In this document: piece by piece, positions 9,671 to 47,458 of the stretch
Layout of the letters: each line of letters opens with the position of its first letter
How positions within the stretch are numbered: the stretch's first letter is position 1
Source: Lacticaseibacillus suibinensis
Lineage (GTDB): Bacteria; Bacillota; Bacilli; Lactobacillales; Lactobacillaceae
Reading direction: 5' to 3'
DNA: 62,785 bases
Assembly (NCBI RefSeq): GCF_003946175.1
Contig: NZ_RHOK01000015.1
Location: 1-62,785, forward strand
Translations under genes and position numbers: made by a program
Notes under the pieces: generated by a model
What the model saw: only the letters and a program-made list of their open reading frames with translations
The model's database searches: none
Told to the model about the DNA's origin: nothing

Positions 9671-9772
9671 GGTCGGCAACATCCGAGCGATTAGCTACGC
9701 ACCAAGCCTCACCAACAAAGAGCGATGGCAATGCTTGGTGCTAGGCTACTCGTCGGACTAAGCCTGCCGACC
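9671..9772. repeat. Hairpin repeat family 2, unit 1
   Basis: A 102-nt imperfect hairpin. Outer stem GGTCGGC/GCCGACC, a second stem TCCGAG with CTCGTCGGA, mid stem ACCAAGC/GCTTGGT and a small apical stem. Part of a tandem array with a 123-bp period, separated by GCAGCCTAGTCGCGCTGC-like spacers. Confidence 0.8.
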
Positions 9773-9793
9773 TCCGCAGCCTAGTCGCGCTGC

Positions 9794-9895
9794 GGTCGGC
9801 AACGTCCGAGCGATTAGCTACGCACCAAGCCTCACCAACAAAGAGCGATGGCAATGCTTGGCGCTAGGCTACTCGTCGGACTAAGCCCGCCGACC
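9794..9895. repeat. Hairpin repeat family 2, unit 2
   Basis: Nearly identical to unit 1 and the same length (102 nt). It has one mid-stem change (GCTTGGC instead of GCTTGGT) that makes a mismatch. Confidence 0.8.
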
Positions 9896-9916
9896 TCCGC
9901 AGCCTATTCGCGCTGC

Positions 9917-10020
9917 GCTGAACCGACGCCCGAGCAGCTAGCTACAGACTGAGCCTTGAAGCCAAGCCCTGGCTTCAAGGTTCAGTCTTAGGCTACCTGT
10001 CGGGCTAAGTGCGGTTCAGC
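9917..10020. repeat. Hairpin repeat family 2, unit 3
   Basis: A 104-nt unit with different stems that still pair: outer GCTGAACC/GGTTCAGC, mid ACTGA/TTCAGT, and a longer apical stem CTTGAAGCC/GGCTTCAAG. The core strands GCCCGAGCAGCTAGCTAC and TAGGCTACCTGTCGGGC match other units. Confidence 0.8.
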
Positions 10021-10035
10021 TTCGCAGCTTAGCTT

Positions 10036-10065
10036 TTGACAAACCCGGTTTTGTTGTGCTACGCT
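10036..10065 (+). promoter_or_regulatory. clpX promoter candidate
   Basis: TTGACA (10,036-10,041), 18-bp spacer and an extended -10, TGCTACGCT, ending at 10,065. A second extended -10, TGGTATCAT, ends at 10,107. Both lie directly downstream of the repeat array; 10,028-10,135 holds no other feature. Confidence 0.55.
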
Positions 10066-10135
10066 GTTGCGGTTTGACTAGGCATGGTGCCGCGGTTTTG
10101 GTATCATGAAGGTAACAAGAAGGGGTTGAAGATTA

Positions 10136-11389
10136 ATGTTTGACAACGTTGAAACCACCGGTCCGGTGACCTGCTCATTTTGCGGGAAATCCCAAGATCA
10201 GGTGAAGAAAATCGTTGCTGGCCCTGGGGTTTATATTTGCAATGAATGTATCGACCTCTGCAAGGAAATCATCGACGAAGAATTCAAGGCTGACGCCGCT
10301 TCCAACATGCTGGAAGTACCAAAGCCAATCGACATTTTGAGCATTTTGAATGACTATGTGATCGGTCAAGATGCCGCTAAAAAAGCGCTCGCGGTAGCGG
10401 TTTATAACCACTACAAGCGGGTTAACCAGATGGAAGTCGCTGACAAAGGCGACACTGAGCTGCAAAAGTCTAACATCGCTTTGATTGGACCAACCGGGTC
10501 AGGGAAGACCTTCTTGGCCCAGAGTTTGGCGCGGATTTTGAATGTGCCATTTGCCATCGCTGATGCCACCACCTTGACGGAGGCGGGTTATGTCGGCGAA
10601 GACGTCGAGAACATTTTGCTCAAGTTGCTCCAAAACGCCGATTACGACGTGGAGCGGGCCGAAAAGGGCATCATCTACATCGACGAAATCGATAAGATCG
10701 CCAAGAAATCCGAGAACGTCTCCATCACCCGTGATGTGTCTGGTGAAGGGGTGCAGCAAGCCTTGCTGAAGATTTTGGAAGGCACGATTGCCAACGTGCC
10801 ACCGCAGGGCGGGCGTAAGCATCCGCAACAGGAATTCATCCAAATCGACACCACGAACATTTTGTTCATTGTTGGTGGGGCGTTTGACGGCATCGAAGGC
10901 ATCGTCAAGAACCGCCTCGGTGAAAAGACCATCGGCTTCGGCAAGAATTCAGACAACACCGAAGTTGATGAGCAGAAGTCACTGATGCAGCAGATTGTAC
11001 CGGAAGATTTAATGAAGTTTGGGATCATCCCTGAATTCATTGGCCGGATTCCGATTATTGCATCGCTTGAGAAGCTGACGGAAGACGATTTGGTCCGGAT
11101 CTTGACTGAACCGAAGAACGCCTTAGTCAAGCAGTATCAAAAGCTGCTGTCGCTGGATGACACCAAGCTGGAATTCACGCAAGGCGCCTTGCATGCGATC
11201 GCTCATAAGGCGATTGTGCGCGATACTGGGGCCCGTGGTTTGCGGAGCATCATTGAAGCCGTGATGCAAGATATGATGTTCACCTTGCCAAGTGAACCAG
11301 AGGTGGTTAAGGCAGTCGTGACCAAAGCGGCGGTTGAAGGCACCGGCAAGCCGGAGCTGATCAAAGCCGACGATCGAAAAGCCTCATAA
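10136..11389 (+). CDS. clpX: ATP-dependent protease ATPase subunit ClpX
   Basis: A 417-residue AAA+ unfoldase that feeds substrates to ClpP. The N-terminal C4 zinc finger uses C13, C16, C35 and C38. Walker A is GPTGSGKT, Walker [10 protein letters not shown], and the GYVGED pore loop is present. Length is normal. AAGGGG precedes the ATG. It is followed by a strong terminator and then yihA, the common ClpX-YsxC order in Firmicutes. Confidence 0.98.
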
Positions 11390-11404
11390 GTTTGATATAA
11401 GCTA

Positions 11405-11436
11405 GGCCAAGCTGACGTTCAGCTTGGCCTTTTTTG
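11405..11436 (+). terminator. Terminator after clpX
   Basis: A perfect 10-bp stem, GGCCAAGCTG/CAGCTTGGCC, with a 5-base loop and T6. Confidence 0.9.
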
Positions 11437-11534
11437 ATGGGATCATTTTTGCCCCTGGTTTGTTTACCGATGCAGACGCCCCTTTTTTCGGCGGGTATGA
11501 TACACTTAATGGCGAAAGATTTTAGGAGGTCACC

Positions 11535-12146
11535 ATGAAAGTCAATAATGTGAGCCTAACCATCAGTGCGGTTAGTGCCAAGCAGTATCCTGCCACCGGG
11601 TACCCAGAAATTGCTTTTGTCGGCCGCAGTAATGTCGGCAAGTCAAGCTTGATCAATCGCCTGATCGATCGCAAAAGCATGGCCCGGACCTCGAGCGTCC
11701 CTGGCAAAACGCAAACGCTGAACTTTTACGACATTGAAGACCTGCTATATTTTGTCGATGTCCCTGGCTATGGCTTTGCTAAGGTGTCCAAAGCCGCGCG
11801 GGCAAAGTTTGCGGCCATGATCGAGGAATACTTAAGTACCCGGCAGCAGCTGCACGGTGCGGTGCTTTTGGTCGATGCGCGGCATTTGCCAAGTGCCGAT
11901 GACGTGTCGATGTATCAGTATCTGAAGTATTTCAATATCGATGTGTTGGTGATCGGCACGAAGGTCGACAAAACCAGCAAGGCGCGGCGGCAAACCATCA
12001 TGCGTGATATCAAAAAGACCTTGGATCTAAACCAAACCGATCAGCTGATTATGTTTTCCGCCGAAACTGGGGAAGGCAAAGATGCGGTCTGGGCTTGGTT
12101 AGAGGCCCAAGCAAATATTGGAGGCAATGATCATGGAGTTGAATGA
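11535..12146 (+). CDS. yihA: Ribosome biogenesis GTPase YihA/YsxC
   Basis: A 203-residue Ras-like GTPase needed for large-subunit assembly. G1 is GRSNVGKS, G3 DVPGYG, G4 TKVDK. An AGGAGGTCACC ribosome-binding site precedes the ATG. Its 3' end overlaps the MazG-like gene by 14 bp, so the two are likely translationally coupled. Confidence 0.95.
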   Translation: MKVNNVSLTISAVSAKQYPATGYPEIAFVGRSNVGKSSLINRLIDRKSMARTSSVPGKTQTLNFYDIEDLLYFVDVPGYGFAKVSKAARAKFAAMIEEYLSTRQQLHGAVLLVDARHLPSADDVSMYQYLKYFNIDVLVIGTKVDKTSKARRQTIMRDIKKTLDLNQTDQLIMFSAETGEGKDAVWAWLEAQANIGGNDHGVE

Positions 12147-12423
12147 GTATCAGGAAAAGGCCAATAAGACTCTGGCCGGCAATGAGCATGTGCTGACCAA
12201 CCTCGCCTTGGGGCTGGCGTCAGATGGCGGGCAAGTGGTCGATCGCATCAAGCGCTACACCTTCCAAGGGCAGGACCTCGATCAGGAGCAACTGAAGGCC
12301 GAGCTGGGCGATGTTCTTTGGTACTTATCGCAAATCGCATTATGGGCGGATATTCCTTTTGAGGAAGTCGCCAAAGCTAATTTGCAAACGTTAGCCAAGA
12401 AGTATCCCAACATCAAGTTATAA
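12133..12423 (+). CDS. MazG-like nucleotide pyrophosphohydrolase with an altered first metal motif
   Basis: A 96-residue all-helical protein of the MazG-like NTP-pyrophosphatase superfamily. The second motif ELGD (57-60) is intact. The first, normally ExxE, reads D31-G-G-Q34, so one carboxylate is changed and another lost. The family hydrolyses NTPs or dNTPs to NMP and PPi using two to three metal ions. The changed site may mean altered or weak activity. ATG 12,133 is used because GGAGG lies 9 bp before it; an ATG at 12,127 is too close. Coupled to yihA by a 14-bp overlap. Confidence 0.75.
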   Translation: MELNEYQEKANKTLAGNEHVLTNLALGLASDGGQVVDRIKRYTFQGQDLDQEQLKAELGDVLWYLSQIALWADIPFEEVAKANLQTLAKKYPNIKL

Positions 12424-12437
12424 CTTAGTCATAAACG

Positions 12438-12479
12438 AAACCAGCGGCCTGCCGATTTTCAGTGTGGCCGCTGGTTTTA
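12438..12479 (+). terminator. Terminator after the MazG-like gene
   Basis: AAACCAGCGGCC pairs with GGCCGCTGGTTT (12 bp) around a 16-base loop, followed by a short T-run. Confidence 0.75.
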
Positions 12480-12492
12480 TCATGAGGCGGAA

Positions 12493-13263
12493 ATGAATCC
12501 AATTCTATTAACGTTAATTCTATTGCTCACTGGGGTGGCTGGTGGGCTCATTAGCTCCACCGCTGGCATGGCGTCTTTGGTCACCTATCCAGTGTTGCTG
12601 GCGTTAGGCGTGCCGCCAGTGTCGGCTAATGTCACCAACACTGCCGCGATGATTTTCACTGGGGTGGGTTCCGGCCTGGCGTCCACGCAAGAGCTGTCGG
12701 CGCATCGCAAATTGATGTGGCAGGTCGGCGTCTGGGCCGTGATCGGCGGCATCGTCGGCGCGTTGATTTTGGCCGTGGCGCCGGCTTCCAGTTTTGAAAA
12801 AGTGGTGCCGTTTCTGATTGCCCTTGCTGGGGTGCTGATGTTGTCATCGCTGCGCCAAAAGCCCGCGCCGGAGCAGGTCGGTCACACCGTTCGCGGCTGG
12901 CGTCTGGTCGGCCGTAATTTCCTAATTTTCTTGGTTGGGGTGTATATCGGCTACTTCGGGGCTTCGGCGGGCGTGATGATGCTCTCCATTTTGGCGGTCA
13001 CCTTACCCGTCAGTTTTGCTGTCAGCAACGCGTTGAAAAACTTCGCGACGTTACTGACCAATATCGTCTCGCTAGTGATTTACGCTTTCACCACCAAAGT
13101 CTACTGGTTGATGGTGATTCCGCTGGGGCTGGGGATGTTTGCTGGCGGCCTGCTGGGACCCATGGTGGTGCGCCATGTCTCTAATCGCTTGATTAGATTG
13201 TTGATCGGCATTGGCGCTTTCGCCTTGGCGGGCTATTTCTTTTATACCGCGTATCTTCAGTGA
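12493..13263 (+). CDS. TauE/SafE family anion exporter
   Basis: A 256-residue integral membrane protein with about eight hydrophobic helices, typical of the sulfite exporter TauE/SafE family. The two halves each begin with a Gly-rich helix (GGLISSTAGMASLVTYP; YIGYFGASAGVMML). Members export sulfite, sulfoacetate or related organic anions; the substrate is unknown here. The ATG follows GAGGCGG closely. It ends against a bidirectional terminator shared with a small minus-strand gene. Confidence 0.85.
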   Translation: MNPILLTLILLLTGVAGGLISSTAGMASLVTYPVLLALGVPPVSANVTNTAAMIFTGVGSGLASTQELSAHRKLMWQVGVWAVIGGIVGALILAVAPASSFEKVVPFLIALAGVLMLSSLRQKPAPEQVGHTVRGWRLVGRNFLIFLVGVYIGYFGASAGVMMLSILAVTLPVSFAVSNALKNFATLLTNIVSLVIYAFTTKVYWLMVIPLGLGMFAGGLLGPMVVRHVSNRLIRLLIGIGAFALAGYFFYTAYLQ

Positions 13264-13300
13264 ATCAAAATGCCGAGCCTCGCGCTCGGCATTTTGATTC
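13262..13300. terminator. Bidirectional terminator between convergent genes
   Basis: A perfect 16-bp stem (AATCAAAATGCCGAG with its complement) has A-rich and T-rich flanks, so it can serve both strands. It overlaps the last bases of the TauE gene and abuts the end of the minus-strand small gene. Confidence 0.8.
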
Positions 13301-13302
13301 AT

Positions 13303-13455
13303 TCATTTCTTAGTGGCTTTTTTGGCCTTGGCGGCTTTAGCCTGGTCTTCTTGCTTTTTTGGATCATTGCCAGTGGCTTTGGTTTCCTCAGGCACCGTGG
13401 CAAACTTGTCGAACATTTCGCCCCAGTCGGTTTTAGTATTCACTTTTAAGCCCAT
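13303..13455 (-). CDS. Small basic protein, SPJ_0845-like
   Basis: A 50-residue protein with AAGGAG upstream of the ATG. The N terminus (WGEMFDKFATVPEE) resembles the short Lactobacillales proteins named SPJ_0845 family; the C terminus is a Lys/Ala-rich tail. No function is known to me. It is below the usual length cut-off but has a good ribosome-binding site, coding-like base composition and a terminator at its end. The family link is from memory and should be searched. Confidence 0.65.
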   Translation of the reverse strand: MGLKVNTKTDWGEMFDKFATVPEETKATGNDPKKQEDQAKAAKAKKATKK

Positions 13456-13544
13456 CGTCGTGTGCTCCTTCCGCCTTGCTTTTGGCGCTAGTATAGCACG
13501 CAGAGGCGACAGATACCAAATGTTGAATAAAAATAGAATAGATA

Positions 13545-13573
13545 TTGCATAAATACTAATTTACGTGTATAGT
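13545..13573 (+). promoter_or_regulatory. Promoter of the amino-acid ABC ATPase gene
   Basis: TTGCAT (13,545-13,550), 17-bp spacer, TATAGT (13,568-13,573). Confidence 0.65.
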
Positions 13574-13630
13574 AAACGACATGATAGTCAAGATGCCGGG
13601 AAAATTCGGCCGTGAAGGGAAGAATGGGTT

Positions 13631-14380
13631 ATGAGCGTTGAACAACCATTGATTCAAGTGAACCATCTCGTTAAGAAGTTTGGCGATAACATTGTCTTGA
13701 ATGACATTACTGAAACCATCAACAAAGGCGACGTCATTGTTGTCATTGGGGCGTCAGGCGGTGGGAAAAGTACCTTCCTGCGTAGTCTCAATTTGCTGAA
13801 TCAGCCGACCTCTGGCCAGGTGCTGTTTGAAGGCACCGACTTGACCTCCCTGAGTGAAAAGCAGCTGGACGTGGTGCGGGAAAAAATGGGGATGGTATTC
13901 CAGCAGTTTAACCTGTTCCCGAACATGACCGTGTTGGATAATATCAAGCTGGCGCCGATGAAAGTCAAGGCTCAAAGCGAAGCTGATGCCACGGCCAAAG
14001 CCAAGGCCTTGCTGGCACAAGTCGGCCTGGAAGATAAAGCCGATGCTTTCCCTACTAGCTTGTCTGGGGGTCAAATGCAGCGGGTGGCCATTGCGCGCGC
14101 CTTGGCCATGGAACCGGATGTGATGCTGTTTGACGAACCAACCTCGGCGCTGGATCCAGAAATGGTGGGCGAAGTGCTGAAAGTTATGGAAGACCTGGCC
14201 AAGTCAGGCATGACCATGGTCATTGTGACCCACGAAATGGGCTTTGCTCGCGAAGTGGCGAATGAAGTGTGGTTCATGGATGACGGCATCATTGCTGAAA
14301 AAGGCAAGCCAGAAGCGATTTTCTCGCATCCAGAGCATCCGCGGACCCAGGACTTCCTCAGTAAAGTCCTGGCCCAGTAG
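13631..14380 (+). CDS. glnQ: Polar amino acid ABC transporter ATP-binding protein (GlnQ-like)
   Basis: A 249-residue ABC ATPase. Walker A is GASGGGKS (40-47), the signature LSGGQ, Walker [14 protein letters not shown], and a switch histidine in VTHEMGFA. Best match is the GlnQ/HisP class that drives uptake of glutamine or other polar amino acids. No permease or binding protein gene lies beside it. It has its own promoter and terminator, so it must pair with subunits encoded elsewhere. Confidence 0.9.
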
Positions 14381-14422
14381 AAAAGATCCTGACCGACATG
14401 GTTGTCAGTCAGGATCTTTTTG
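14381..14422. terminator. Bidirectional terminator between glnQ and the MFS gene
   Basis: AAAAGATCCTGAC pairs with GTCAGGATCTTTT. It starts at the glnQ stop and covers the last codons of the convergent MFS gene. Confidence 0.8.
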
Positions 14423-15643
14423 ATTCCAAGCGGCCTTGGGTAAATTGAGCACATGCATCACCGCCGCGATGGAGCAGCCGCCCAGCAGTAGGAACAAAAT
14501 GGCCATGCCATACTGGCCAATGGCCGTCGACAAGGTGACCGTGGCTCCGGCCAGCACCGAAGCCAACGGATAAACCGCGGAAAAGGCCCCGGAGTATGTG
14601 CCAATCTTGGCTGGATCCATTAAGTCCGCGCGCAGCGTTTGACTCGGCGGCACTACGACCATTTCGCCGATGGTGAGAATCACCGCGCAAATCACAATCG
14701 GCCACAGAGTGTTGAGCATGCATGTGAGGGCAAACCCCAGCGTCTGCAGCCCCATGCCAATGCCGTAAGCGCGGCGCAGTGACCATTTGCTGGTCAAGCG
14801 GGTGAAGAGGGACATAAAGGGAATAATGATGGCGGTGTTGATCAGCGTGATGCCAGACAGCATGCGCTGGCCATAGATTTCCAGCCCGAAAAGAGGCACC
14901 GTGTGAAAATCGGCGCCGAGATGCACGGCAAGGTAGAAACCAAGCTGGTTGGTGACCATGCCGCTGAGTACTATGCCGATGAGGTACCAGTCGTAGCGAT
15001 GGTCACTCATGACTTGCCAATAGCCACGTACCGCCTGCCAAACTGATCCAGAGCCGGTATGCTCTGGGGCGAAGCTTTCGGTCATGAAGAACCAGATGAT
15101 GATCAGGTTGATGATGGTGACCACGCCCATACCGATGAGTAATTCAAACAGGTAATCCCGGAAGAACCAGCCGCCCAGCGCGGCCCCAATCATGACCGAA
15201 ATGTTAATGATCCAGTAGATCAACGCGTACACATAGCGCCGATTCTGCGGCGTCGAGACATCGATGACCATCGCCTCTTCGGCGGGGCTAGAGAGGTTGG
15301 CGCCGACCTGCGCAATCAAAAACGCGAAGAAGGTGGGAATCGGATAGTGACCCAGTGGAGAATTCATCACCGCCGCCAAGGCAAACCCAACCAACGTCAA
15401 AATGGTGCCTAGCACCATGATGGGTTTACGGCCATGCACATCGGCCAGATGCCCACCATACAGGCCGGCAATGAAGCCCATGACCGACACGATAATGAGT
15501 AGCACCCCGGTCAGGCCGGCGCCGAAGTACTTGGCGTAGTAAATGGTCATGTTAGGGCCAATGGCGCTCGACAGCATGACCGCCAAGAAGACTGTCAGCA
15601 TCCGTAATTTTAAATTGTTATTCAGTGCCATAAATTCTTTCAT
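14405..15643 (-). CDS. MFS transporter (drug-efflux type)
   Basis: A 412-residue major facilitator with about 12 membrane helices. The loop 2-3 motif reads GGHLADVHGRKP, close to the MFS motif A consensus. It probably exports small molecules; the substrate is unknown. The start is the ATG at 15,643 with GGAGG 5 bp before it; a longer reading frame upstream has no ribosome-binding site. Its 3' end lies inside the terminator shared with glnQ. Confidence 0.85.
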   Translation of the reverse strand: MKEFMALNNNLKLRMLTVFLAVMLSSAIGPNMTIYYAKYFGAGLTGVLLIIVSVMGFIAGLYGGHLADVHGRKPIMVLGTILTLVGFALAAVMNSPLGHYPIPTFFAFLIAQVGANLSSPAEEAMVIDVSTPQNRRYVYALIYWIINISVMIGAALGGWFFRDYLFELLIGMGVVTIINLIIIWFFMTESFAPEHTGSGSVWQAVRGYWQVMSDHRYDWYLIGIVLSGMVTNQLGFYLAVHLGADFHTVPLFGLEIYGQRMLSGITLINTAIIIPFMSLFTRLTSKWSLRRAYGIGMGLQTLGFALTCMLNTLWPIVICAVILTIGEMVVVPPSQTLRADLMDPAKIGTYSGAFSAVYPLASVLAGATVTLSTAIGQYGMAILFLLLGGCSIAAVMHVLNLPKAAWNQKDPD

Positions 15644-15722
15644 GATTACCTCCGCCAAACTTAACCAGTATACGGAAAGCGCAGGCAAAAGAAAAGGCCA
15701 CCGGCGCAAGGCAAGTGGTCAA

Positions 15723-15872
15723 TTATTTAGGCCGGCGGCGCGGGGTCCGGCCAATTAAATCATGGTCAAGCTGGCGCTGCAAGTTGGCCAACCCAGCGGC
15801 TTTTGCGCTCCGGGTTTGGCGTTTTTTAATCGCGGCATTCGGCCGCTTTCGGTGTTTTTGCACAATCCTCAT
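15723..15872 (-). CDS. Very basic small protein, hypothetical
   Basis: A 49-residue frame (46 if the GTG at 15,863 is used, which has AGAGG at better spacing). Roughly a third of the residues are Arg or Lys (for example KHRKRPNAAIKKRQTR), suggesting nucleic-acid or ribosome binding. An extended -10, TGGTATCAT, lies on the minus strand at 15,894-15,899, just upstream. No family recognised. It is divergent from uvrC. Confidence 0.4.
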   Translation of the reverse strand: MRIVQKHRKRPNAAIKKRQTRSAKAAGLANLQRQLDHDLIGRTPRRRPK

Positions 15873-15989
15873 CCTCTATCAACGGCTAAACCTATGATAC
15901 CATGCCGGCGTCTGAGTTGCGTTATGCGGTGGTGAATATTAGAATAGTAAGCGAACGTTTGTTTCGTATTCGATAAACGAGGTGATAGA

Positions 15990-17768: not shown

Positions 17769-17772
17769 CCCA

Positions 17773-17800
17773 ACGCGACTGTTTACAGTCGCGTTTTTTG
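17773..17800 (+). terminator. Terminator after uvrC
   Basis: A perfect 8-bp stem, ACGCGACT/AGTCGCGT, with a 6-base loop, followed by T5. Confidence 0.85.
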
Positions 17801-17882
17801 GTGCTTCCGTTTCTCTGGTAATCATGCTATTATGATGATATTAAAATGAGATTTAAATTATAAAATGAAAAGAGTGATGATC

Positions 17883-18026
17883 ATGATGGCGATGCCAAAT
17901 CATCCCACTAGGCAGCATCAAGTCGATCAGGACCGCGCTTATGACCGGATTGCGCCCAAGCCATATCACTGTTTAGCCTTGATTGTCGCCAGTCTGGTAC
18001 TGGCCGGGGTACTGGGGTTTCTCTAA
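17883..18026 (+). CDS. Small single-pass membrane protein, hypothetical
   Basis: A 47-residue frame with a polar, His/Gln/Asp-rich N-terminal half and one C-terminal hydrophobic helix (LALIVASLVLAGVLGFL). A weak AAAAGAG lies 8 bp before the ATG; an in-frame ATG at 17,877 is also possible. An extended -10 (TGCTATTAT) lies upstream near 17,826 and a good terminator follows. No family recognised; probably a short membrane protein facing the cytoplasm with its N terminus. Confidence 0.5.
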   Translation: MMAMPNHPTRQHQVDQDRAYDRIAPKPYHCLALIVASLVLAGVLGFL

Positions 18027-18036
18027 TTAAACGAGT

Positions 18037-18068
18037 GGGTCCGCTGCAAGTGACAGCGGGCCCTTTTT
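18037..18068 (+). terminator. Terminator after the small membrane protein
   Basis: GGGTCCGCTG pairs with CAGCGGGCCC, followed by T5. Confidence 0.8.
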
Positions 18069-18139
18069 GTTGGGCAGGTGCGGGAACGGTGGTGGCGCCA
18101 AGCAGCAGCAGCCACCACCGCCCCCGCGCCAGAGTAAAG

Positions 18140-18168
18140 AAAAACCCTCACTGCCGAAGCGGTGAGGG
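18140..18168 (-). terminator. Terminator of the fruRKA operon
   Basis: On the minus strand, CCCTCAC/GTGAGGG is followed by T5. It lies 11 bp after the fruA stop. Confidence 0.85.
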
Positions 18169-18179
18169 AGACAGAATCA

Positions 18180-21781: not shown

Positions 21782-21802
21782 TTTCTTCACCTCACAGCGC
21801 TT

Positions 21803-24866: not shown

Positions 24867-24912
24867 AACGATAATGAAAGTCATGCAGGTGGTGAACTAG
24901 TCGCTACGCAGC

Positions 24913-24993
24913 GTCGACGCCGAAGCGACGAGCTAAGGTGCACGCTGGCTGACACGCGGTATCAAGGCTACTCGTCGCCCTAAGCCCCCCGAC
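24913..24993. repeat. Hairpin repeat family 2, unit 4 (shortened)
   Basis: A degraded copy. GACGCCGAAGCGACGAGCTA and GGCTACTCGTCGCCCTAAGC match the two core strands of the family, but the outer stem is short and the apical part is replaced. Confidence 0.6.
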
Positions 24994-25015
24994 CTTTGGA
25001 GCCTAGTCGCGCTGC

Positions 25016-25119
25016 ATGAGGCCAACGCCTGAGCGACTAGCCACGCCCAAAGCCTCGCCATCAAAAGGCGATGGCAATGCTTTGGGCTAGGCTACTCGTC
25101 AGGCTAAGCCCGGCCTCAT
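25016..25119. repeat. Hairpin repeat family 2, unit 5
   Basis: A 104-nt unit: outer stem ATGAGGCC/GGCCTCAT, mid stem CCCAAAGC/GCTTTGGG, apical stem GCCATC/GATGGC. Core strands as in the other loci. Confidence 0.85.
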
Positions 25120-25140
25120 TCCGCAGCCTAGTCGCGCTGC

Positions 25141-25244
25141 ATGAGGCCAACGCCTGAGCGACTAGCTACGCCCAAAGCCTCGCCATCAAAAGGCGATGGC
25201 AATGCTTTGGGCTAGGCTACTCGTCAGGCTAAGCCCGGCCTCAT
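25141..25244. repeat. Hairpin repeat family 2, unit 6
   Basis: Almost identical to unit 5 (period 125 bp), joined to it by the spacer CCGCAGCCTAGTCGCGCTGC. This suggests a recent duplication. Confidence 0.85.
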
Positions 25245-25261
25245 TCCGCAGCCTGGCTGTA

Positions 25262-25290
25262 TTGCACTTTGGGGGCAGAACCCGTATGAT
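25262..25290 (+). promoter_or_regulatory. obg promoter
   Basis: TTGCAC (25,262-25,267), 17-bp spacer, TATGAT (25,285-25,290). It begins 18 bp after the last hairpin unit. Confidence 0.65.
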
Positions 25291-35437: not shown

Positions 35438-35442
35438 CCGCG

Positions 35443-37931: not shown

Positions 37932-37934
37932 TTG

Positions 37935-38331: not shown

Positions 38332-38475
38332 AGAATCCCTCTTTTCTGATGTCAGTTTAACACGCTGAAAAGAAAAATGAAACTGACGAGGCGGTTTTCA
38401 TTCTGGCAAGGCAAAATAATCCGCCGCCTCTGCGGAAACAGGTGGAGTCGGGTATAATGGCATTGAGGTGGCAAC

Positions 38476-41400
38476 ATGTTTACACATATTCAAGTTCAAA
38501 GCGCCAATTCCTTGCTTCAAAGCCCACTGACTTTGGGGCAGATCATCACTGCCGCCAAGGACCGCGGATTTGCTGCGATCGGGCTCAGTGATGTCAATGT
38601 GGTGTATGGCGTTGTCGATTTTTATCGGCAAGCCACCGCCGCACATATCAAACCGCTGTTAGGCATGACGGTCGCCGTTGCTGACGCCCGTTTCTTAGTC
38701 GTGGCCGAAACCACTGCCGGGTATCATCAGCTGCTGCGGCTATCGAGTGCCATCATGTTGCAATCTGAGTTGCCTAAACTGACCGACCTGCCGGCGCTGG
38801 CCGGAATGGCGGTGATTATCCCTGGGGCCGATTTGCTCAGCCCGGCATTTGCCGAGCGCGGGTACACCGGTGTAGAGCTTGTCGCAGCTTTGAAAGCCAA
38901 GCAGCCAGCGAGTTTGTATCTGGGCGTAACGGCGGCGGACCTGGGCGGCTCTTTGCCGCAGTTTGCCGAGACGCAAAAACTACCCCTATTGGCGCTGAGC
39001 CAAGTCAGCTACCTCAATCCCACCGATGCGTTCACGCAGAAGGTGATGGCGGCGATTAAATCTGGCCAGCAGCTTAATTTCCGGGATCCTACCTTGATGG
39101 ATGCCGGCCCTGATTGGCTAACCCCGGCTGATCAGGCCGCTGCCCCTTTCGCGCAGTTGCCCGAAGCGTTGACCAACCTTGAAGCTCTAGTGGCGCGCTG
39201 TCAGGTGACCATTGAATTCAAACAGCCACAGCTGCCGCATTTTCCCACGCCGGACAACCAGCCGGCGGCGGCCTATCTGGCCAGCTTGGCTCAAGCGGGG
39301 TTGAAGCAGCGCATGGGCACGGTGCCGCCTGACTATCAGAAGCGGCTCGCTTATGAGCTTAAAGTCATTGATGAAATGGGCTTCGCCGATTACTTCCTGG
39401 TAGTGTGGGATGTGATGAACCACGCCCATGAAGTCGGGATTATGACTGGTCCCGGGCGTGGTTCCGCGGCGGGCGCGCTGGTGGCATTTGCTTTGGCAAT
39501 TACCGAAGTGGATCCGATTGAATACCATTTGCTGTTTGAACGGTTTCTCAATCCGGCTCGGGCGCAAATGCCGGACATTGATCTGGATATCCCGGATGAT
39601 CGCCGCGGCGAGCTCATTCAATATGTCCATGACCGGTATGGGGATGACCACATGGCCCAAATCATCACTTTCGGCACGTTTGGTGCTAAGCAAGCCATTC
39701 GCGATGTGGCGCGGGTGTTTGGCCTCAGTCAATTTGACGGCAATAAGTGGAGCAATGCCATTCCCAGCCAGTTGCATATCAACCTGAAGCAAGCGTACGA
39801 GGATTCATTGCCGCTCCGTAATCTAGTGGGGGATGCGCCGGAAAATCAGCGGTTGTTTCAAACCGCCCTGGCCTTGGAGGGGCTACCACGCCACTATTCG
39901 ACCCATGCGGCTGGCATTGTGCTGGCGCAAGAAGTGCTGACTGACACTGTCGCCTTGCAAGATGGAGGTGACGGCATTGCCCAAACCCAAGTGACCATGG
40001 TCAATGTCGAGGCGCTGGGTCTGCTCAAAATCGACTTTCTCGGTTTGCGCAACCTCAGTCTGCTGGCCCGCGCCAGCAAGGCCATTGCCTATCAAACCAA
40101 GCAAGCGTTTGACCCTAAGCAAATCCCGCTGGATGATGCGGCGACCTTACAACTTTTTGCCCGCGGGGATACCAACGGTGTGTTCCAATTTGAATCGGCT
40201 GGCATTCGCTCGGTGCTGAAGCGCCTGCAGCCCACGACCTTTGAAGATGTCGTGGCCACCAATGCCTTGTATCGACCAGGGCCAATGGAGCAAATCGATA
40301 CCTTTATTCGCCGCAAGCACGGCCAAGAGCCGATTACTTATGCCGCGCCAGCGCTGGAGCCGATTTTGGCGCCGACCTATGGCGTGTTGGTGTATCAGGA
40401 ACAAGTCATGCAGGTGGCGAGCACCATGGGCGGATTCAGTTTAGGCGAAGCCGATTTGTTGCGCCGCGCGATGAGTAAGAAAAAAGCCGCCGTCCTGGCA
40501 GCCGAAAAAACGCGGTTCCTGGCCGGGGCCAAGGCCAAAGGTTACGATCAGGCTACCGCGGAAACGGTCTATGACTATATCGACCGCTTTGCCAATTATG
40601 GTTTCAACCGTAGTCATGCCGTAGCCTACAGCATGATTGCCTTTTGGTTGGCTTACATCAAAGTTCATTATCCGACGGCATTTTTCGCGGCGCTGATGAA
40701 CAGCACGTTGAACAGTGGCCCCAAGCTGCGCCAATACGTGCAGGAGCTCAAACAACGGAAAATCAAAGTGCTAGCGCCAGATATCAATCGCAGTGGGCTG
40801 GTTTTCCGCATCGAAGGCGCCAGTCTGCGTTTTGGCTTTTTGTCCATCAAGGGGCTGCGCCGGGACTTTGCCGATGCATTGCTGACCGCGCGGGCTGACG
40901 GGCCGTTCCGTTCGCTGCAAGATGTCTTTCAGCGGCTTGACCCCAAGTGGTTGAAAGCGGAGCAATTCGCGCCGCTAGTGGCGGCTGGCGTGTTTGATCA
41001 GTTTGATGACAATCGGGCGCAGGTTACCGCTAATCTCGCTGAGTTGATGGAAACCGTCAAGTTGGCTGGTAACGATGTGGGGTTGTTTGAGGCGTTCCAG
41101 CCCAAGCTGATTAAAGTGCCGCGGCAGTCAGCCACCGAGCAGCTCGACCAAGAGGCTGCTGTGCTCGGGGTGTACTTATCAGGGCATCCCGTGGATCGTT
41201 ATCAGAACCAACTGGCGCCGTTTTATCCGATCATGGCCACCACGGCGCTGCAGGGGCAAAAGCAAGCAACGGTGCTGCTAGTGATTCGCCGGATCAAACG
41301 CATTCGCACCAAGAAGGGGCAGGAAATGGCGTTCATCGATGGTCAAGATGCCAGCGGACCGCTGAGCATCACGGTTTTTCCGAGCCTTTACCCGGCCATC

Positions 41401-41775
41401 AGTGAATTTAAGGTGGATCAGGTGGTACTGGTACAAGGCAAAGTCGAGGAGCGCGATGGCCTGCAAATGATTGCCAACCAAATCGAGTTGGCGGATCACC
41501 TGGTGGCCAAACTGCCGGCAGCGAAGCTATTCATTCAGCTGCACGACCAAACGCCGGCTCAGCAAAAAGCGTTGCTGGCGCTGCTAGGCCAAATGACCGG
41601 GCCCATCCCGGTGATCACGGTGAATGCACAAACCCGTGAAAGCGTCATGCTCAATCGCCGTTACTGGATCGATGCCAGCGATGAAAACGTCGCCAAGATT
41701 AAGACCCTGATGGGAGAAAAAAACGTAGTGCTCCAGCGGGTTGAGCGGGTTTCAGAAAAAATGGAAGATTCATAA
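38476..41775 (+). CDS. dnaE: DNA polymerase III subunit alpha DnaE
   Basis: A 1099-residue polymerase. The catalytic motif is in MPDIDLDIPDD. A C-terminal OB domain follows the helix-hairpin-helix region. The N-terminal PHP domain is degenerate: canonical HxHxH reads H4-I-Q-V-Q8, so metal binding and proofreading are unlikely. In Firmicutes DnaE extends RNA primers before PolC takes over. GAGGTGGC precedes the ATG. Followed by pfkA and pyk, a conserved lactobacillus order. Confidence 0.96.
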   Translation: MFTHIQVQSANSLLQSPLTLGQIITAAKDRGFAAIGLSDVNVVYGVVDFYRQATAAHIKPLLGMTVAVADARFLVVAETTAGYHQLLRLSSAIMLQSELPKLTDLPALAGMAVIIPGADLLSPAFAERGYTGVELVAALKAKQPASLYLGVTAADLGGSLPQFAETQKLPLLALSQVSYLNPTDAFTQKVMAAIKSGQQLNFRDPTLMDAGPDWLTPADQAAAPFAQLPEALTNLEALVARCQVTIEFKQPQLPHFPTPDNQPAAAYLASLAQAGLKQRMGTVPPDYQKRLAYELKVIDEMGFADYFLVVWDVMNHAHEVGIMTGPGRGSAAGALVAFALAITEVDPIEYHLLFERFLNPARAQMPDIDLDIPDDRRGELIQYVHDRYGDDHMAQIITFGTFGAKQAIRDVARVFGLSQFDGNKWSNAIPSQLHINLKQAYEDSLPLRNLVGDAPENQRLFQTALALEGLPRHYSTHAAGIVLAQEVLTDTVALQDGGDGIAQTQVTMVNVEALGLLKIDFLGLRNLSLLARASKAIAYQTKQAFDPKQIPLDDAATLQLFARGDTNGVFQFESAGIRSVLKRLQPTTFEDVVATNALYRPGPMEQIDTFIRRKHGQEPITYAAPALEPILAPTYGVLVYQEQVMQVASTMGGFSLGEADLLRRAMSKKKAAVLAAEKTRFLAGAKAKGYDQATAETVYDYIDRFANYGFNRSHAVAYSMIAFWLAYIKVHYPTAFFAALMNSTLNSGPKLRQYVQELKQRKIKVLAPDINRSGLVFRIEGASLRFGFLSIKGLRRDFADALLTARADGPFRSLQDVFQRLDPKWLKAEQFAPLVAAGVFDQFDDNRAQVTANLAELMETVKLAGNDVGLFEAFQPKLIKVPRQSATEQLDQEAAVLGVYLSGHPVDRYQNQLAPFYPIMATTALQGQKQATVLLVIRRIKRIRTKKGQEMAFIDGQDASGPLSITVFPSLYPAISEFKVDQVVLVQGKVEERDGLQMIANQIELADHLVAKLPAAKLFIQLHDQTPAQQKALLALLGQMTGPIPVITVNAQTRESVMLNRRYWIDASDENVAKIKTLMGEKNVVLQRVERVSEKMEDS

Positions 41776-41851
41776 GCAATAGGCGACATTTTTTCAGAAA
41801 AGTGATATGCTTAACAAGTGTTTGGGGCTTACCCCAAAAAGAAAATCATGA

Positions 41852-42820
<969 letters not shown>

Positions 42821-42896
42821 TCTCGTTTTACTTTAATTGTGTTAATTCTGGCGTAAAAGTCGGCATTAAAAATTGTCAAAGGAGCGATTTTACATT

Positions 42897-44663
42897 ATGA
42901 AAAAAACCAAGATCGTTAGCACGCTCGGTCCGGCCAGCAACACGACGGACATCATCGTTAAGCTGATCCAGGCGGGGGCCAACGTATTCCGGTTTAACTT
43001 CTCTCATGGGGACCACGAAGAACACTTGGCTCGCATGAATATGGTTCATGAAGCTGAAAAGATCACCGGCAAGACGGTTGGGATCATGCTTGACACGAAG
43101 GGTGCTGAAATCCGGACCACGGTTGAGCACACTGACAACGGCAAGATTGAATATCATACTGGCGATGTAATGCGGATTTCGATGGACGCTAGCCTCGAAG
43201 GCACCAAAGAAAAAGTCGCTGTCACCTACCCAGGTTTGTATGACGATACCCACGTTGGCGGCCATGTGCTGTTCGACGATGGTTTGATTGATGTTTTGAT
43301 CACCGAAAAGGACGAAGCCAACCGAGAACTGGTCTGCACCGTGCAAAACGACGGTGTCTTGGGCAGCCGTAAAGGCGTCAACGCCCCTGGTGTTTCCATC
43401 AACCTGCCAGGGATTACCGAAAAAGACGCCGATGATATTCGTTTCGGCTTGGACAATGGGATCAACTTCATTGCTGCTTCCTTCGTTCGTAAGCCTCAGG
43501 ACGTGATGGACATTCGGGAATTGCTCGAAGAAAAGAACGCCCTGAACGTTCAGATCTACCCAAAGATTGAATCCCAAGAAGGCATTGACAACTTTGACGA
43601 TATCCTGAAGGTTTCCGATGGTCTGATGGTTGCTCGTGGCGACATGGGTGTCGAAATTCCATTTGAACATGTGCCAATCGTTCAGAAGACTTTGATCCGC
43701 AAGTGCAACGATGCTGGTAAGCCAGTCATCACTGCGACCCAGATGCTGGATTCCATGCAGGAAAACCCACGCCCAACGCGGGCTGAAGTGAACGACGTGG
43801 CCAATGCGGTCTTCGACGGCACCGATGCCACGATGTTGTCTGGTGAATCCGCTAACGGTGAATACCCAGTTGAATCTGTTGCTGCTATGGCGCGGATCGA
43901 TGCTTACATCGAAGACCAGATCACCAAAGAAGGCGGCTATGCTGAACGCGACTACGCCAACGCTTCTGTCACCGAATCCGTTGGGGTGGCAGTGGCTCGC
44001 ACCGCTAAGAAGCTGGGCGTGAAGACCATTGTGGCGGCTACCAACTCTGGCTACACCGCTCGTATGATCTCCAAGTACCGCCCAGATGCTGACATCCTGG
44101 CCATCACCTTCGACGAAAAGACCCAGCGCGGCTTGACCATCAACCGCGGCGTCTTCCCAATCGTTGCTGATCGTCCAAACAGCACTGACGAAATGTTCGA
44201 CTTGGCCACCAAGAAGGCGCAAGAACTCGGCTTTGCTGAGGAAGGCGACCTGATCTTGATTACCGCCGGCGTACCGGTTGGTGAAAGTGGCACCACCAAC
44301 GTCATGAAGGTTCAACTCATCGGCTCCAAGCTGGTTCAAGGCTCTGGGGTTGGCGACGAAGCTGTCGTTGGTAAAGCCGTCTTGGCTAACAGCGCTGATG
44401 AAGCTGCTGCTAAGATGCAAAAGGGTGACATTCTGGTCGTTAAGACGACAGATAAGGATTACCTGCCAGCCATTGAAAAGGCTTCGGCCTTGGTCGTTGA
44501 AAATGGCGGCTTAACCAGCCACGCTGCTGTGGTTGGGATTGCCATGGGTATTCCGGTGGTTGTTGGCGCTGAAGATGCCCTGAAGGCCATCACCGATGGT
44601 CAGGTCATCACCGTTGACTCCCGTCGTGGGATCGTCTACAAGGGTGCTACCAACACGCTGTAA
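42897..44663 (+). CDS. pyk: Pyruvate kinase
   Basis: A 588-residue enzyme converting PEP and ADP to pyruvate and ATP. The N terminus MKKTKIVSTLGPAS, the active-site lysine region, and MVARGDMGVEIP are typical. About 110 extra C-terminal residues form a PEP-utilising mobile-like domain (GGLTSHAAVVGIAMG), usual in Bacillus and Lactobacillus. AAAGGAG lies 12 bp before the ATG. Strong codon bias. Co-transcribed with pfkA. Confidence 0.97.
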   Translation: MKKTKIVSTLGPASNTTDIIVKLIQAGANVFRFNFSHGDHEEHLARMNMVHEAEKITGKTVGIMLDTKGAEIRTTVEHTDNGKIEYHTGDVMRISMDASLEGTKEKVAVTYPGLYDDTHVGGHVLFDDGLIDVLITEKDEANRELVCTVQNDGVLGSRKGVNAPGVSINLPGITEKDADDIRFGLDNGINFIAASFVRKPQDVMDIRELLEEKNALNVQIYPKIESQEGIDNFDDILKVSDGLMVARGDMGVEIPFEHVPIVQKTLIRKCNDAGKPVITATQMLDSMQENPRPTRAEVNDVANAVFDGTDATMLSGESANGEYPVESVAAMARIDAYIEDQITKEGGYAERDYANASVTESVGVAVARTAKKLGVKTIVAATNSGYTARMISKYRPDADILAITFDEKTQRGLTINRGVFPIVADRPNSTDEMFDLATKKAQELGFAEEGDLILITAGVPVGESGTTNVMKVQLIGSKLVQGSGVGDEAVVGKAVLANSADEAAAKMQKGDILVVKTTDKDYLPAIEKASALVVENGGLTSHAAVVGIAMGIPVVVGAEDALKAITDGQVITVDSRRGIVYKGATNTL

Positions 44664-44685
44664 TTACTTGTGATAACAAGCATGA

Positions 44686-44719
44686 AAGTCGGGTCAGCAT
44701 TTGCTGGCTCGGCTTTTTT
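44686..44719 (+). terminator. Terminator after pyk
   Basis: AAGTCGGGTCAGC pairs with GCTGGCTCGGCTT, followed by T-rich sequence. Confidence 0.75.
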
Positions 44720-44792
44720 GGTGCGCTGGTGGTGGGTGACTTTTGCTGTGAACTCGCGTAAAGTAGAAACAGAACAAATGCAGGAGGTCATT

Positions 44793-45254
44793 ATGGAAAG
44801 CTGGGCATTTTTAACCGCCGTCTTGGCGATCGCCGCCGTGGCGAAAAACAAAGCGCTGCTGATTGGGGTCGGGTTGGTGATGGTGATCAAACTGATTCCA
44901 GCCTTGCAGCCGTTGCTGAAAACCATTCAGGCGCAAGGCATCAACTGGGGTGTGACCATTATATCGGCTGCCATCATGGTGCCAATTGCCACCGGCGAAA
45001 TTGGCTTCAAGGAGCTGGTGCAGGTGGTTAAAAGCCCGGCTGGGTGGATTGCCATTGCCATGGGCATTTTGGTGGCAGTGCTATCCAGCAAAGGGGTCGG
45101 GTTGCTCGCCCAGAGCCCGGAAATGACCGTCGCCTTGGTGTTCGGCACCATTGTCGGCGTTGTGTTTCTCAAAGGCATCGCCGCTGGCCCGGTGATCGCC
45201 AGTGGCATGACCTACGTGATTTTAACAGTGTTTAATTTAGTGCCCACACATTAG
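44793..45254 (+). CDS. UPF0756 (DUF441) membrane protein
   Basis: A 153-residue protein with four to five membrane helices, matching the DUF441/UPF0756 family (YeaL/YtwI). The function is unknown. AGGAGG precedes ATG 44,793. It lies 9 bp before cvfB, so the two are co-transcribed. Confidence 0.85.
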
Positions 45255-45263
45255 GAGGCAACC

Positions 45264-46127
45264 ATGAACTTTAACGGTCAAATCATTGACGCGACAGTTT
45301 CAGATACGAATGATACCCAAGTTTTCGCCCAATACGACGGCGTGACCTTAGCTATCGACCAAACCGAATTTGAGACAGTGCCAGCCACCGGCGCCACTGT
45401 GCACGGTTTTGCGTATGAAAACAAAAATGACACAGCGCGGCTGACAACCAAAATTCCGACGATCGGTTATGACCATTATGCCTTTGCCACAGTCGTCCAG
45501 GTGCGCAAGGACCTAGGCGTTTTCCTAGACATCGGGTTGCCAGATAAAGATCTGGTGCTGTCCTTGGACCAGTTGCCAGAACTGGCGCGGCTGTGGCCAG
45601 CCAAAGGCGACCGCTTGATGGTGGCGATGCGCATCGATAAAAAGCATCGCCTCTGGGCGGATTTGGCGGATGAGACCATGTTTCAAGCCATTGCCAATCA
45701 GGCCAAGCCGACGATGATGAACGCTGATGTGACAGCGACAGTGTACCGTTTGAAGCTGGCAGGCACGCATGTCCTCACGTCAGATTACTATCTGGGCTTT
45801 ATTCACCCCAGCGAACGGCAAACCGAACCGCGCCTTGGGGAAGTGGTACACGGCCGTGTGATTGGCGTGCGAGATGATGGCAGCTTAAATCTCTCGCTGA
45901 AGCCGCGAGCCTTCGAAGAAATCGATGATGACGCCGCAATGATTTTGGCCGTCATTGATCATGACCCTAGCCGCAGTATTCCTTACACGGATAAAAGTGA
46001 TCCCGAAGCCATTAAGGCAGCGTTTGGCATCAGCAAAGGGGCCTTTAAGCGCGCGCTGGGGCACTTGCTCAAAGCCAAATTGATCACGCAGCAAAATGGG
46101 GTGACCAAGCGGAATGACCAGCAGTAA
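45264..46127 (+). CDS. cvfB: S1-domain RNA-binding protein CvfB
   Basis: 287 residues with repeated S1-like OB folds (about 65-135 and 145-215; VVQVRKDLGVFLDIG and GRVIGVRDDGSLNLSL) and a C-terminal winged helix (KAAFGISKGAFKRALGHLLK). This matches CvfB, an RNA-binding virulence and stress regulator of staphylococci. AGGAGG precedes the ATG. The 3' end overlaps xerD by 14 bp. Confidence 0.9.
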   Translation: MNFNGQIIDATVSDTNDTQVFAQYDGVTLAIDQTEFETVPATGATVHGFAYENKNDTARLTTKIPTIGYDHYAFATVVQVRKDLGVFLDIGLPDKDLVLSLDQLPELARLWPAKGDRLMVAMRIDKKHRLWADLADETMFQAIANQAKPTMMNADVTATVYRLKLAGTHVLTSDYYLGFIHPSERQTEPRLGEVVHGRVIGVRDDGSLNLSLKPRAFEEIDDDAAMILAVIDHDPSRSIPYTDKSDPEAIKAAFGISKGAFKRALGHLLKAKLITQQNGVTKRNDQQ

Positions 46128-47022
46128 AAAACGCCAAGCCATGGCCGACCAAATTGGTGATTTTGTCCATTATCTGGATGTTGAACGTGGGCTCGCCAAA
46201 ACGACCCAAACCAGCTATCGCCAAGATCTGAATGAATTTGCGGACTGGCTCGATACCAGTGATGCCGCTGGCTTTCCTGAATCGCTTGAATCGATTCAGG
46301 CCTTTCTGGCGACCCAAAGTGACGCCAAAGCCGCTACCTCAGTGAGCCGGATGATTTCGGCTTTGCGCAAGTTCTATCGCTACCTCTTGCGCGAAACTGT
46401 AGTTAGCAGCGACCCCATGACCATGGTTGCCTCACCTAAGCCCGCCCAGCATTTACCAGCCACCTTATCGGGACCGGAAATCGATGCCTTAATGGCCGCG
46501 CCTGATATTACACAACCGCTGGGGTTACGCGATCGAGCCATGTTTGAGCTGATGTACGCCACCGGTCTGCGGGTGTCGGAACTCGTTAACCTGCGCTTGG
46601 ATCAAATGCACCTCTCACTTAACCTGCTGGAAGTGACAGGGAAAGGCGACAAGCAGCGCATCGTGCCCGTGTCGCCGCAAGCCGTCGATTGGGTCAATCA
46701 GTACCTACAAACTAGCCGGCCAGCCTTGATCAAAAAAACGCCGCCGGCCGTCGTATTCGTCAATTTTCACGGCCGCCAGCTCACCCGCCAAGGCATCTGG
46801 AAAAACCTCAAAGCTTATATTCAAGCCCTGGGCATCGAAAAGGACGTCACCCCGCACACGCTGCGCCACAGCTTTGCCACCAATCTCCTCGAAAACGGAG
46901 CGGACTTGCGCGTCGTGCAAGAACTCCTCGGCCACGCTGACATCAGCACAACGCAGATTTACACGCATTTGAGTAATAAGAAAATCATGAAGGTCTATCA
47001 CGACACACATCCACGGGGATAG
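46114..47022 (+). CDS. xerD: Tyrosine recombinase XerD
   Basis: A 302-residue recombinase that resolves chromosome dimers at dif. Catalytic residues are R153, H248, R251, H274 and Y283. The start at 46,114 has GGGGTGA upstream; the ATG at 46,141 has none. No dif site was recognised nearby. It is followed by repeat locus 3 and then ribT. Confidence 0.93.
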   Translation: MTSSKKRQAMADQIGDFVHYLDVERGLAKTTQTSYRQDLNEFADWLDTSDAAGFPESLESIQAFLATQSDAKAATSVSRMISALRKFYRYLLRETVVSSDPMTMVASPKPAQHLPATLSGPEIDALMAAPDITQPLGLRDRAMFELMYATGLRVSELVNLRLDQMHLSLNLLEVTGKGDKQRIVPVSPQAVDWVNQYLQTSRPALIKKTPPAVVFVNFHGRQLTRQGIWKNLKAYIQALGIEKDVTPHTLRHSFATNLLENGADLRVVQELLGHADISTTQIYTHLSNKKIMKVYHDTHPRG

Positions 47023-47227
47023 GTGGGGCGCAATCTTCTATTGCACCTGCGTTAAGGCCTTATCGTAATCATAGAGATGGCGGGCATCCAATCGTCTGTC
47101 ATGTAACTAGTTTTCAATCAGAAGTGTTGGGGTCAGGGAGTCCAATCTAGCAAGAAAACACTAACGTAGCCCCTGCCTGCGGAAGCTGGCCTGGCCGGGC
47201 GCCTGTGATTTACCGTAGTTGCGCTCC

Positions 47228-47331
47228 GAACGACCAACGCCGGAGTGGCTAGCTACGCTTAAGCCCTTGTCGGTAAAAGACACCGACAAGACCTCAAGCT
47301 AGGCTACCCATCCGGCTAAAAGCGGTCGTTC
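47228..47331. repeat. Hairpin repeat family 2, unit 7
   Basis: A 104-nt unit: outer stem GAACGACC/GGTCGTTC, second stem GCCGGA/TCCGGC, apical stem CTTGTCGGT/ACCGACAAG. Core strand GGCTAGCTACGC kept. Confidence 0.8.
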
Positions 47332-47354
47332 TCCGCAGCCTAGAGTTGCGCTCC

Positions 47355-47458
47355 GTAAGGCCAATGCCCGAGCAGTTAGCTACGTCGTAAGCCTCGCCGT
47401 CAAAGTGCGCCGGCAATGCTTACGCCTAGGCTACCTGTCGGGCTAAGTGCGGCCTTAC
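47355..47458. repeat. Hairpin repeat family 2, unit 8
   Basis: A 104-nt unit: outer stem GTAAGGCC/GGCCTTAC, second stem GCCCGAG with CTGTCGGGC, mid stem GTAAGC/GCTTAC. The rest of 47,023-47,227 is GC-rich sequence in which I see no gene. Confidence 0.8.

Follow-up and report, generated by a model that had tools for sequence, protein, structure and literature searches.

The window analysed here, a 62,785-nt stretch of Lacticaseibacillus suibinensis (NZ_RHOK01000015.1, positions 1 to 62,785), carries a family of long hairpin units at three loci, the first ahead of clpX, the second ahead of obgE, and the third flanked by a gene scoring as XerD and by a short open reading frame (ORF) that matched no family. 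A sequence-only reading of the window had described eight units in the same orientation at these loci, and direct reading together with alignment confirms them, seven as intact units and one as a remnant. The length of 102–104 nt given in that reading runs from outer stem to outer stem; with a further helix, GTYGCG/CGCAGC, the unit extends to about 123–131 nt. The scores listed here come from R1, a covariance model built from 28 units of the same genome; plus denotes the orientation of the model, and the favoured fold lies on the minus strand of the window.

9655..9783, plus: unit 1 (R1 122.8 bits; sequence, fold)
9692..9699, plus: left core strand TAGCTACG of unit 1 (minus: CGTAGCTA), one side of an invariant internal loop
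9741..9754, plus: right core strand CTAGGCTACTCGTC of unit 1 (minus: GTAGCCTAG)
9778..9906, plus: unit 2, almost the same as unit 1 and head to tail with it (R1 129.7 bits; fold)
9901..10031, plus: unit 3, with different stems, its right end adjoining the clpX promoter (R1 122.8 bits; fold z -9.0)
10036..10065, plus: promoter-like TTGACA-18-TACGCT, directly right of unit 3 and ahead of clpX (direct reading)
about 24900..25005, plus: unit 4, a remnant with approximate limits, right half kept and left half degenerate (direct reading)
about 24945-24959, plus: relic of a small inserted hairpin within the remnant, the same insert being known in other units
25000..25130, plus: unit 5 (R1 145.1 bits)
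25125..25255, plus: unit 6, almost the same as unit 5, its right end adjoining the obgE promoter (R1 145.3 bits)
25262..25290, plus: promoter-like TTGCAC-17-TATGAT, directly right of unit 6 and ahead of obgE (direct reading)
47212..47342, plus: unit 7 (R1 131.4 bits)
47339..47469, plus: unit 8 (R1 140.0 bits)

A search of the 2.56-Mb genome with R1 recovered at least 138 units, a lower bound because only 150 of 1088 candidates were scored. These units form 83 clusters, 35 of which hold two to five units, and they follow one another head to tail at a step of 121–134 bp, except twice (169 and 171); orientation is mixed in six clusters. The exact core pattern occurs 28 times in the genome and a relaxed pattern 48 times, and reversed core patterns had zero matches across the whole genome. 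The units show the intergenic dispersal, high copy number and strong folding by which miniature inverted-repeat transposable elements of the ERIC/BOX type are recognized; our own ORF calls overlap a minority of the clusters. A class of five units in this genome (L004, L010, L011, L020 and L024) has a 59-nt core, and the main class shares chiefly the core with it; four of the five are nearly identical, with flanks GTCACAGCCCC and TTCACTCCGAAT, and L024 is more divergent (all by eye).

Covariation, fixed cores and the folded strand

The seven intact units fold with z scores of -4.4 to -9.0, and none of 200 shuffles folded as well for six of them (one of 200 for unit 8). In the 28-row alignment, paired cells amount to 93.5% versus 75.9% in shuffled controls, double changes occur at 28 of 43 pairs versus 18.9, and the covariation score is 0.467 versus 0.138, a value reached by none of 500 shuffles and by none of the slid partners, which score at most 0.096. 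The count of further pair types, one of five measures used, gave no excess (55 versus 57.4 shuffled). The earlier proposal that the stems change sequence yet keep pairing is thus upheld by covariation far above both controls, and the larger alignment of 28 units did not erase the signal. The same strong covariation supports selection for a folded nucleic acid, as the sequence-only reading had suggested, with one correction: the favoured strand is opposite to the one read there.

The two nearly fixed strands noticed at the outset prove to be two internal loops plus their flanking pairs. Columns 40–46, the left core, are almost invariant across 111 units, and on the minus strand the invariant loops read CTTAG facing GTT and CCTAG facing CGTAG; the helix adjacent to the core switches as a block among CGA/TCG, CAG/CTG and TGG/CCA (by eye). 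In six long units, one of the two fixed cores is interrupted at its T^AG by a hairpin insert of about 46 nt, which is oriented the same way in both cores (by eye; C2:93269, C23:27572, C23:146118, C52:82300, C53:22176 and C55:103117), and in fetched stretches, chosen around units, all 11 matches to the tail motif of the insert lie at a core or core remnant (by eye). With inserts nested at the core, the fixed core itself looks like their target.

Which strand folds can be judged from the mismatches tolerated within stems. On the plus strand, A.C outnumbers G.T by 52 to 5 in the 28 units and by 164 to 45 in 111 distinct units (binomial p 4e-17, with rows that are not independent), and because A.C on plus is G.U on minus, the fold appears to be favoured on the minus strand. 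The larger set comprises 113 of the 138 units, 111 of them distinct, with a length of 120–140, at least 38 paired cells and at least 85% pairing; this last filter counted G.T but not A.C as paired and was thus biased against the result. Column composition as the source of the excess was ruled out by shuffling the 3′ letters within column pairs, which gave an A.C share of 0.54–0.585 versus 0.785 observed. The excess persists with one unit per cluster (104 versus 33 in 70 units) and after removal of the five most unbalanced pairs (91 versus 40). The minus strand is also the more stable one in 103 of 111 units under RNA parameters and in 110 of 111 under DNA parameters, and the consensus reaches -75.5 kcal/mol with 43 pairs on minus versus -62.2 with 38 pairs on plus. 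At well-conserved pairs, the A.C mismatches arose by 93 G-to-A and 20 T-to-C changes on plus (the latter mostly at one pair), the G.T mismatches by 22 C-to-T and 4 A-to-G changes. The A.C share is 0.67–0.86 in all four classes of neighbouring gene direction (a fifth, open class of one cluster has one A.C and three G.U), and its presence whatever the gene direction points to the element’s own life cycle and not to read-through transcripts.

The units also appear to be composite. Among the aligned rows inspected, the same apical hairpins are found with different outer stems, and one unit of L. suilingensis has outer arms that mismatch each other and looks chimeric (both by eye); modules therefore seem to have been exchanged between units by recombination, and because of this exchange the rows of the alignments are not independent.

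Placement of the ends, array polarity and distribution

Around the 83 clusters (U), gene directions are >U> in 36, <U< in 21, <U> in 15 and >U< in 8, with three open. The right end of the unit, which is the 5′ end of the minus strand, is sharply placed and the left end is not. Among terminators within 120 nt, 7 of 7 on the right side end 0–5 nt from the unit, and the 14 on the left side lie at 22–73 nt; stop codons of facing genes fall between -14 and +11 nt of the unit in 17 of 29 cases on the right versus 3 of 46 on the left (by eye); and a -35 element starts within 14 nt of the unit in 13 of 51 cases on the right versus 1 of 37 on the left. The terminator and promoter finders were simple scripts without a random background, and genes were called as greedy longest ORFs without annotation. 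The placement of terminators and stop codons is repeated in other species: 18 of 19 right-side terminators end 34–42 nt from the core end, which is the unit edge (13 in other Lacticaseibacillus and 5 in Lactiplantibacillus or Lapidilactobacillus loci), the 11 on the left being scattered, and stop codons lie 30–39 nt from the core end in 19 of 51 cases on the right and 0 of 49 on the left. The minus-strand 5′ end reads AGGCTGCG in the own genome and AGAGYGYG in other genera (by eye).

An end set directly after stop codons, on a strand that tolerates G.U-type pairs, is also what one would expect of a functional RNA, either a minus-strand hairpin transcribed at mRNA 3′ ends, where it might serve stability, processing or back-up termination, or a trans-acting molecule. 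We consider such an RNA rather unlikely, since neighbouring genes in the own genome more often read plus (36 >U> versus 21 <U<) and both classes show the strand signature, a unit whose right end follows a terminator would escape co-transcription if that terminator works, and units at shared sites mostly change one side of a stem at a time, as detailed below.

Arrays in the own genome have a polarity. Right halves without a left half number 31 of 162, versus 3 left halves without a right half among 135, and 24 of the 31 orphan right halves have a like-oriented intact unit to their right at a distance of no more than 60 nt. The right-end motif touches the left edge in 33 of 83 clusters (2% of background windows), and the left-end motif touches the right edge in 5 of 83 (0.4% of background windows). 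When 41 of the 43 left flanks were compared, a unit of the same array was among the top three of 133 matches for 12 of them, with 1.6 expected, and two four-unit arrays have an ABAB order. Such a pattern would suit copying off a circular or multimeric template, with one end exact and the other ragged.

Two further features were noted. A second repeat of about 150–175 bp (GGGGCTCAGTGGTGAA ... CCACCACGTTCCAGCCCC) is present at window 9480–9650 and 358–495; in stretches chosen around units, 9 of its 12 own-genome copies precede a unit array on the left at a distance of up to 67 nt, which is 21–32 nt in 7 cases, and a copy stands at the third site in L. suilingensis, where the window has none (by eye). 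The gene preceding the third locus (window 46114–47022) scores above the cut-off for the tyrosine recombinase XerD.

The search of related genomes proposed in the sequence-only reading finds the family across Lactobacillaceae and in a few other Lactobacillales. Scoring the best 8 candidates per genome under stricter filters, R1 detects it in 58 of 397 genomes of the window’s family, in 11 of 40 genera, and R2 is a model built from other genera, of which 71 loci were sampled. Among 395 genomes of the order, R2 detects the repeat in 39, of which 32 belong to the same family and 7, by model match, to three others. In a phylum sample of 398 genomes, R2 matched the own genome only and the 397 others gave no match. 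Copy number can be high elsewhere too, with 130 units in G062 (1.9 Mb) and 55 in G049, a genus member assembled as one contig of 3.0 Mb; the absence from G049 that R1 had suggested was overturned by R2, which finds these 55. A pattern scan of named genomes listed at least 80 matches of 108 stretches, one in Helicobacter, taken for chance, and 79 in lactobacilli, namely Lacticaseibacillus, Lapidilactobacillus, Loigolactobacillus, Lactiplantibacillus (L. plantarum among them) and Companilactobacillus. In the same kind of scan, one 7.1-kb contig of a viral collection has the core pattern (L270 460–514). At the level of the genus, R1 places units in front of clpX in 2 of 30 genomes, namely the own genome and L. 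suilingensis, and in front of obgE in 3 of 30, as site gain would lead one to expect.

Relation to known repeat families and mobilizing enzymes

The sequence-only reading had not recognized the repeat as a known family, and Rfam 15, run at its curated gathering thresholds over the window and 31 loci (for L061–L089, 20 of 29 loci), likewise gave no match to the units. Its matches, to FMN and lysine riboswitches, lie outside units only, and relaxing the search to E up to 1 over 9400–10300 yielded four scores, all far below the thresholds. The FMN riboswitch of the window is at 50025–50146. No description of such a Lactobacillus repeat was found in the literature outside subscription papers; PMC2267715 presents a survey of L. 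johnsonii.

The units are short interspersed palindromic elements of the ERIC/BOX/RUP/REP/bcr kind and appear to form a separate family, set apart from ERIC and BOX by description. They are unusual in that all stems vary freely around two fixed loops, in their strand signature and in their one-sided docking. ERIC (enterobacterial repetitive intergenic consensus) elements are intergenic imperfect palindromes of about 127 bp, dispersed in many copies and with a conserved centre, and by description they resemble the units in length, palindromic form, dispersal and conserved centre; however, they belong to another phylum and keep a near-constant sequence, whereas the stems of the units change freely. 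The bcr1 repeat of the Bacillus cereus group is a structured repeat of about 150 bp that sits at a TTTAT motif; it is likened to the units by description, as another structured Firmicutes repeat. Integron attC sites are recognized as one folded strand, keep their structure while their sequence varies and stand in head-to-tail arrays, but by description they conserve their ends and not their core, and the units carry no cassettes. Class C group II introns insert 3′ of terminators, and because the units lie directly after terminator T-tracts in sense orientation, a remnant or passenger of such an intron might be envisaged. RVT_1, however, was absent at E 0.001 from G325, G277, G315, G303 and G263, all of them unit carriers and L. 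suilingensis among them; the domain occurs in 11 of 30 genus genomes, with one partial match in the own genome. The loci scanned gave no Rfam intron match, the units also follow stop codons and precede promoters, and an intron origin is therefore extremely improbable.

According to PMC3049150, the pneumococcal BOX, RUP and SPRITE repeats are interspersed, BOX and RUP being tightly folded, and are thought to be parasitic, with a low current rate of insertion, and SPRITE is enriched near gene 3′ ends; set beside the units by description, BOX differs in its A-B-C modules and in terminal repeats that resemble ISSpn2 (PMC3049150). REP/BIME elements are described in PMC3733652 as palindromes found as dimers and arrays, whose transposase recognizes a single-stranded fold, CGTC repeats having no dedicated enzyme; Firmicutes are not among the phyla named there, and neither the word Lactobacill nor Firmicutes occurs anywhere in the text. 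Palindromes, dimers and arrays are shared by the units, as are intergenic hairpins and a GTAG that appears twice at the core on the minus strand, so that movement by a RAYT (Y1) transposase could be imagined. A REP is only 20–40 bp long, with its GTAG or CGTC tag at one end (PMC3733652), whereas the units are three to six times that length (about 123–131 nt) and hold GTAG inside a stem. Nor was Y1_Tnp found at E 0.001 in six unit-carrying genomes (G198, G277, G315, G263, G335 and G107, with 6–8 units each among the 8 candidates scored); it occurs in 13 of 30 genus genomes, only as fragments in the own genome (two) and in G325. The likeness to REP/BIME and BOX seen in the sequence-only reading is therefore right as to kind, and membership of the REP family fails on length and on the want of a Y1 transposase that tracks the units, leaving a RAYT-driven origin very unlikely. 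Mobilization by REP/RAYT, or by a group II or other reverse transcriptase, was accordingly rejected because these genes do not track the element. A recurrent neighbour gene as mobilizer was also rejected: the 220 ORFs nearest to units at 107 contig loci fall into 182 clusters, the largest of the 14 listed covering 10 loci and reading like an ABC transporter (by eye).

A hairpin possibly propagated as one folded strand

Taking together the copy number, covariation, strand preference, right-end placement, own-genome array polarity and spread over genera, we tentatively favour a non-autonomous interspersed hairpin element that is propagated as a folded minus strand by an enzyme for which no candidate was found. 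Such an element, of about 125–131 bp and coding for no protein, would have spread through the lactobacilli as one folded single strand. The two invariant internal loops within the long hairpin would most likely be the protein recognition site, and the drift of the stem sequences is best explained if the stems only need to pair. Insertion or amplification would set the minus-strand 5′ end at a boundary, be it a terminator T-tract, a stop codon, a promoter edge or the end of a previous unit, and the raggedness of the other end in the own genome would leave head-to-tail arrays whose leftmost unit is partial. The intermediate would then be single-stranded DNA rather than RNA, with copying started at the right end by such an enzyme. 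It is tempting to speculate further on a class of mobile hairpin common to the Lactobacillales, for which a circular or multimeric template would give folded single-stranded copies. The fixed 5′ end of the minus strand would dock at transcription boundaries, and copying would run through at least one whole unit and stop anywhere, the enzyme being neither Y1 nor a reverse transcriptase and reading the two internal loops instead of a sequence. This extended scheme is doubtful, and if true it would give arrays with one precise and one ragged end.

Several results weigh against propagation as a folded minus strand. Only Y1_Tnp and RVT_1 were screened as mobilizing enzymes; neither tracks the family, and no enzyme was found. 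No recent insertion was caught in the 62 kb compared with L. suilingensis, a contig of which is 92–94% identical to the window: all three window sites are occupied there, with unit numbers that differ and units that partly differ. No target duplication was seen in the flanks (by eye), no clean empty site was aligned, and plasmids and phages gave no match with one unit as query, on which ground carriage by either was rejected. The tig-clpX gap measures 117–249 bp in 17 genus genomes and 871–1113 bp in 6 (7 of 30 unmeasured), and R1 units occur in only two of the six long gaps; the other four must be long from other or undetected causes. R1 moreover overlooks units that R2 finds in G049 and G132. 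As for array polarity, the 31 orphan right halves of the own genome would include any unit whose left half its model overlooked, and the left raggedness is absent from the other genera sampled (orphan left halves 18 of 105, right halves 11 of 93), so that polarity is a lead and not a rule.

The strand preference has counterweights of its own. T.G is fixed on plus at columns 9–128 and 44–92, which is C.A on minus, and both pairs were set aside. Among 94 units of other genera, the A.C excess comes from two closing pairs (86 and 66 sequences), without which A.C and G.U stand at 135 each; the alignment behind this count had been fitted to the model of the plus strand. Mutation bias of a general kind is harder to dismiss than column composition as a cause of the A.C excess: the control is weak (unpaired columns changed G>A in 3 of 333 and C>T in 26 of 884, with only three G columns qualifying), and at well-conserved pairs most A.C mismatches came about by G-to-A on plus. 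The relation of strand to GC skew also differs between species. Counted by eye on the matches listed (104 of 130 units in G062 and 33 of 55 in G049), 50 of 67 sites in G062 share one relation and 17 of 24 in G049 have the opposite one; a replication-linked strand rule was rejected on this opposition.

Units that share a site with L. suilingensis speak most directly to the history of single copies. In the four closest comparisons (93–97% identical, one partner being common to units 1 and 2), 13 changes are one-sided and 1 is double; a single copy thus tends to change on only one side of a stem, and the covariation reflects the family’s long history. Such one-sided changes, together with the shared apical hairpins on different outer stems, the chimeric-looking unit (both by eye) and the ABAB arrays, would suit old palindromic repeats whose symmetry is maintained by recombination and hairpin-templated repair, with no selection for the fold. 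We judge this to be quite improbable, as it leaves unexplained an A.C share beyond column composition, the invariant loops and the one-sided placement.

About 0.7% of the genome (138 units of about 130 bp) is thus made up of one unnamed structured repeat, placed at gene boundaries that include those of clpX and obgE, and carriers of the family include L. plantarum. For learning which internal loops are read by a protein or RNA machine when the surrounding stems are free to vary, the units offer a large natural data set, and because only one of their ends docks at terminators and stop codons, the way they move can be tested.

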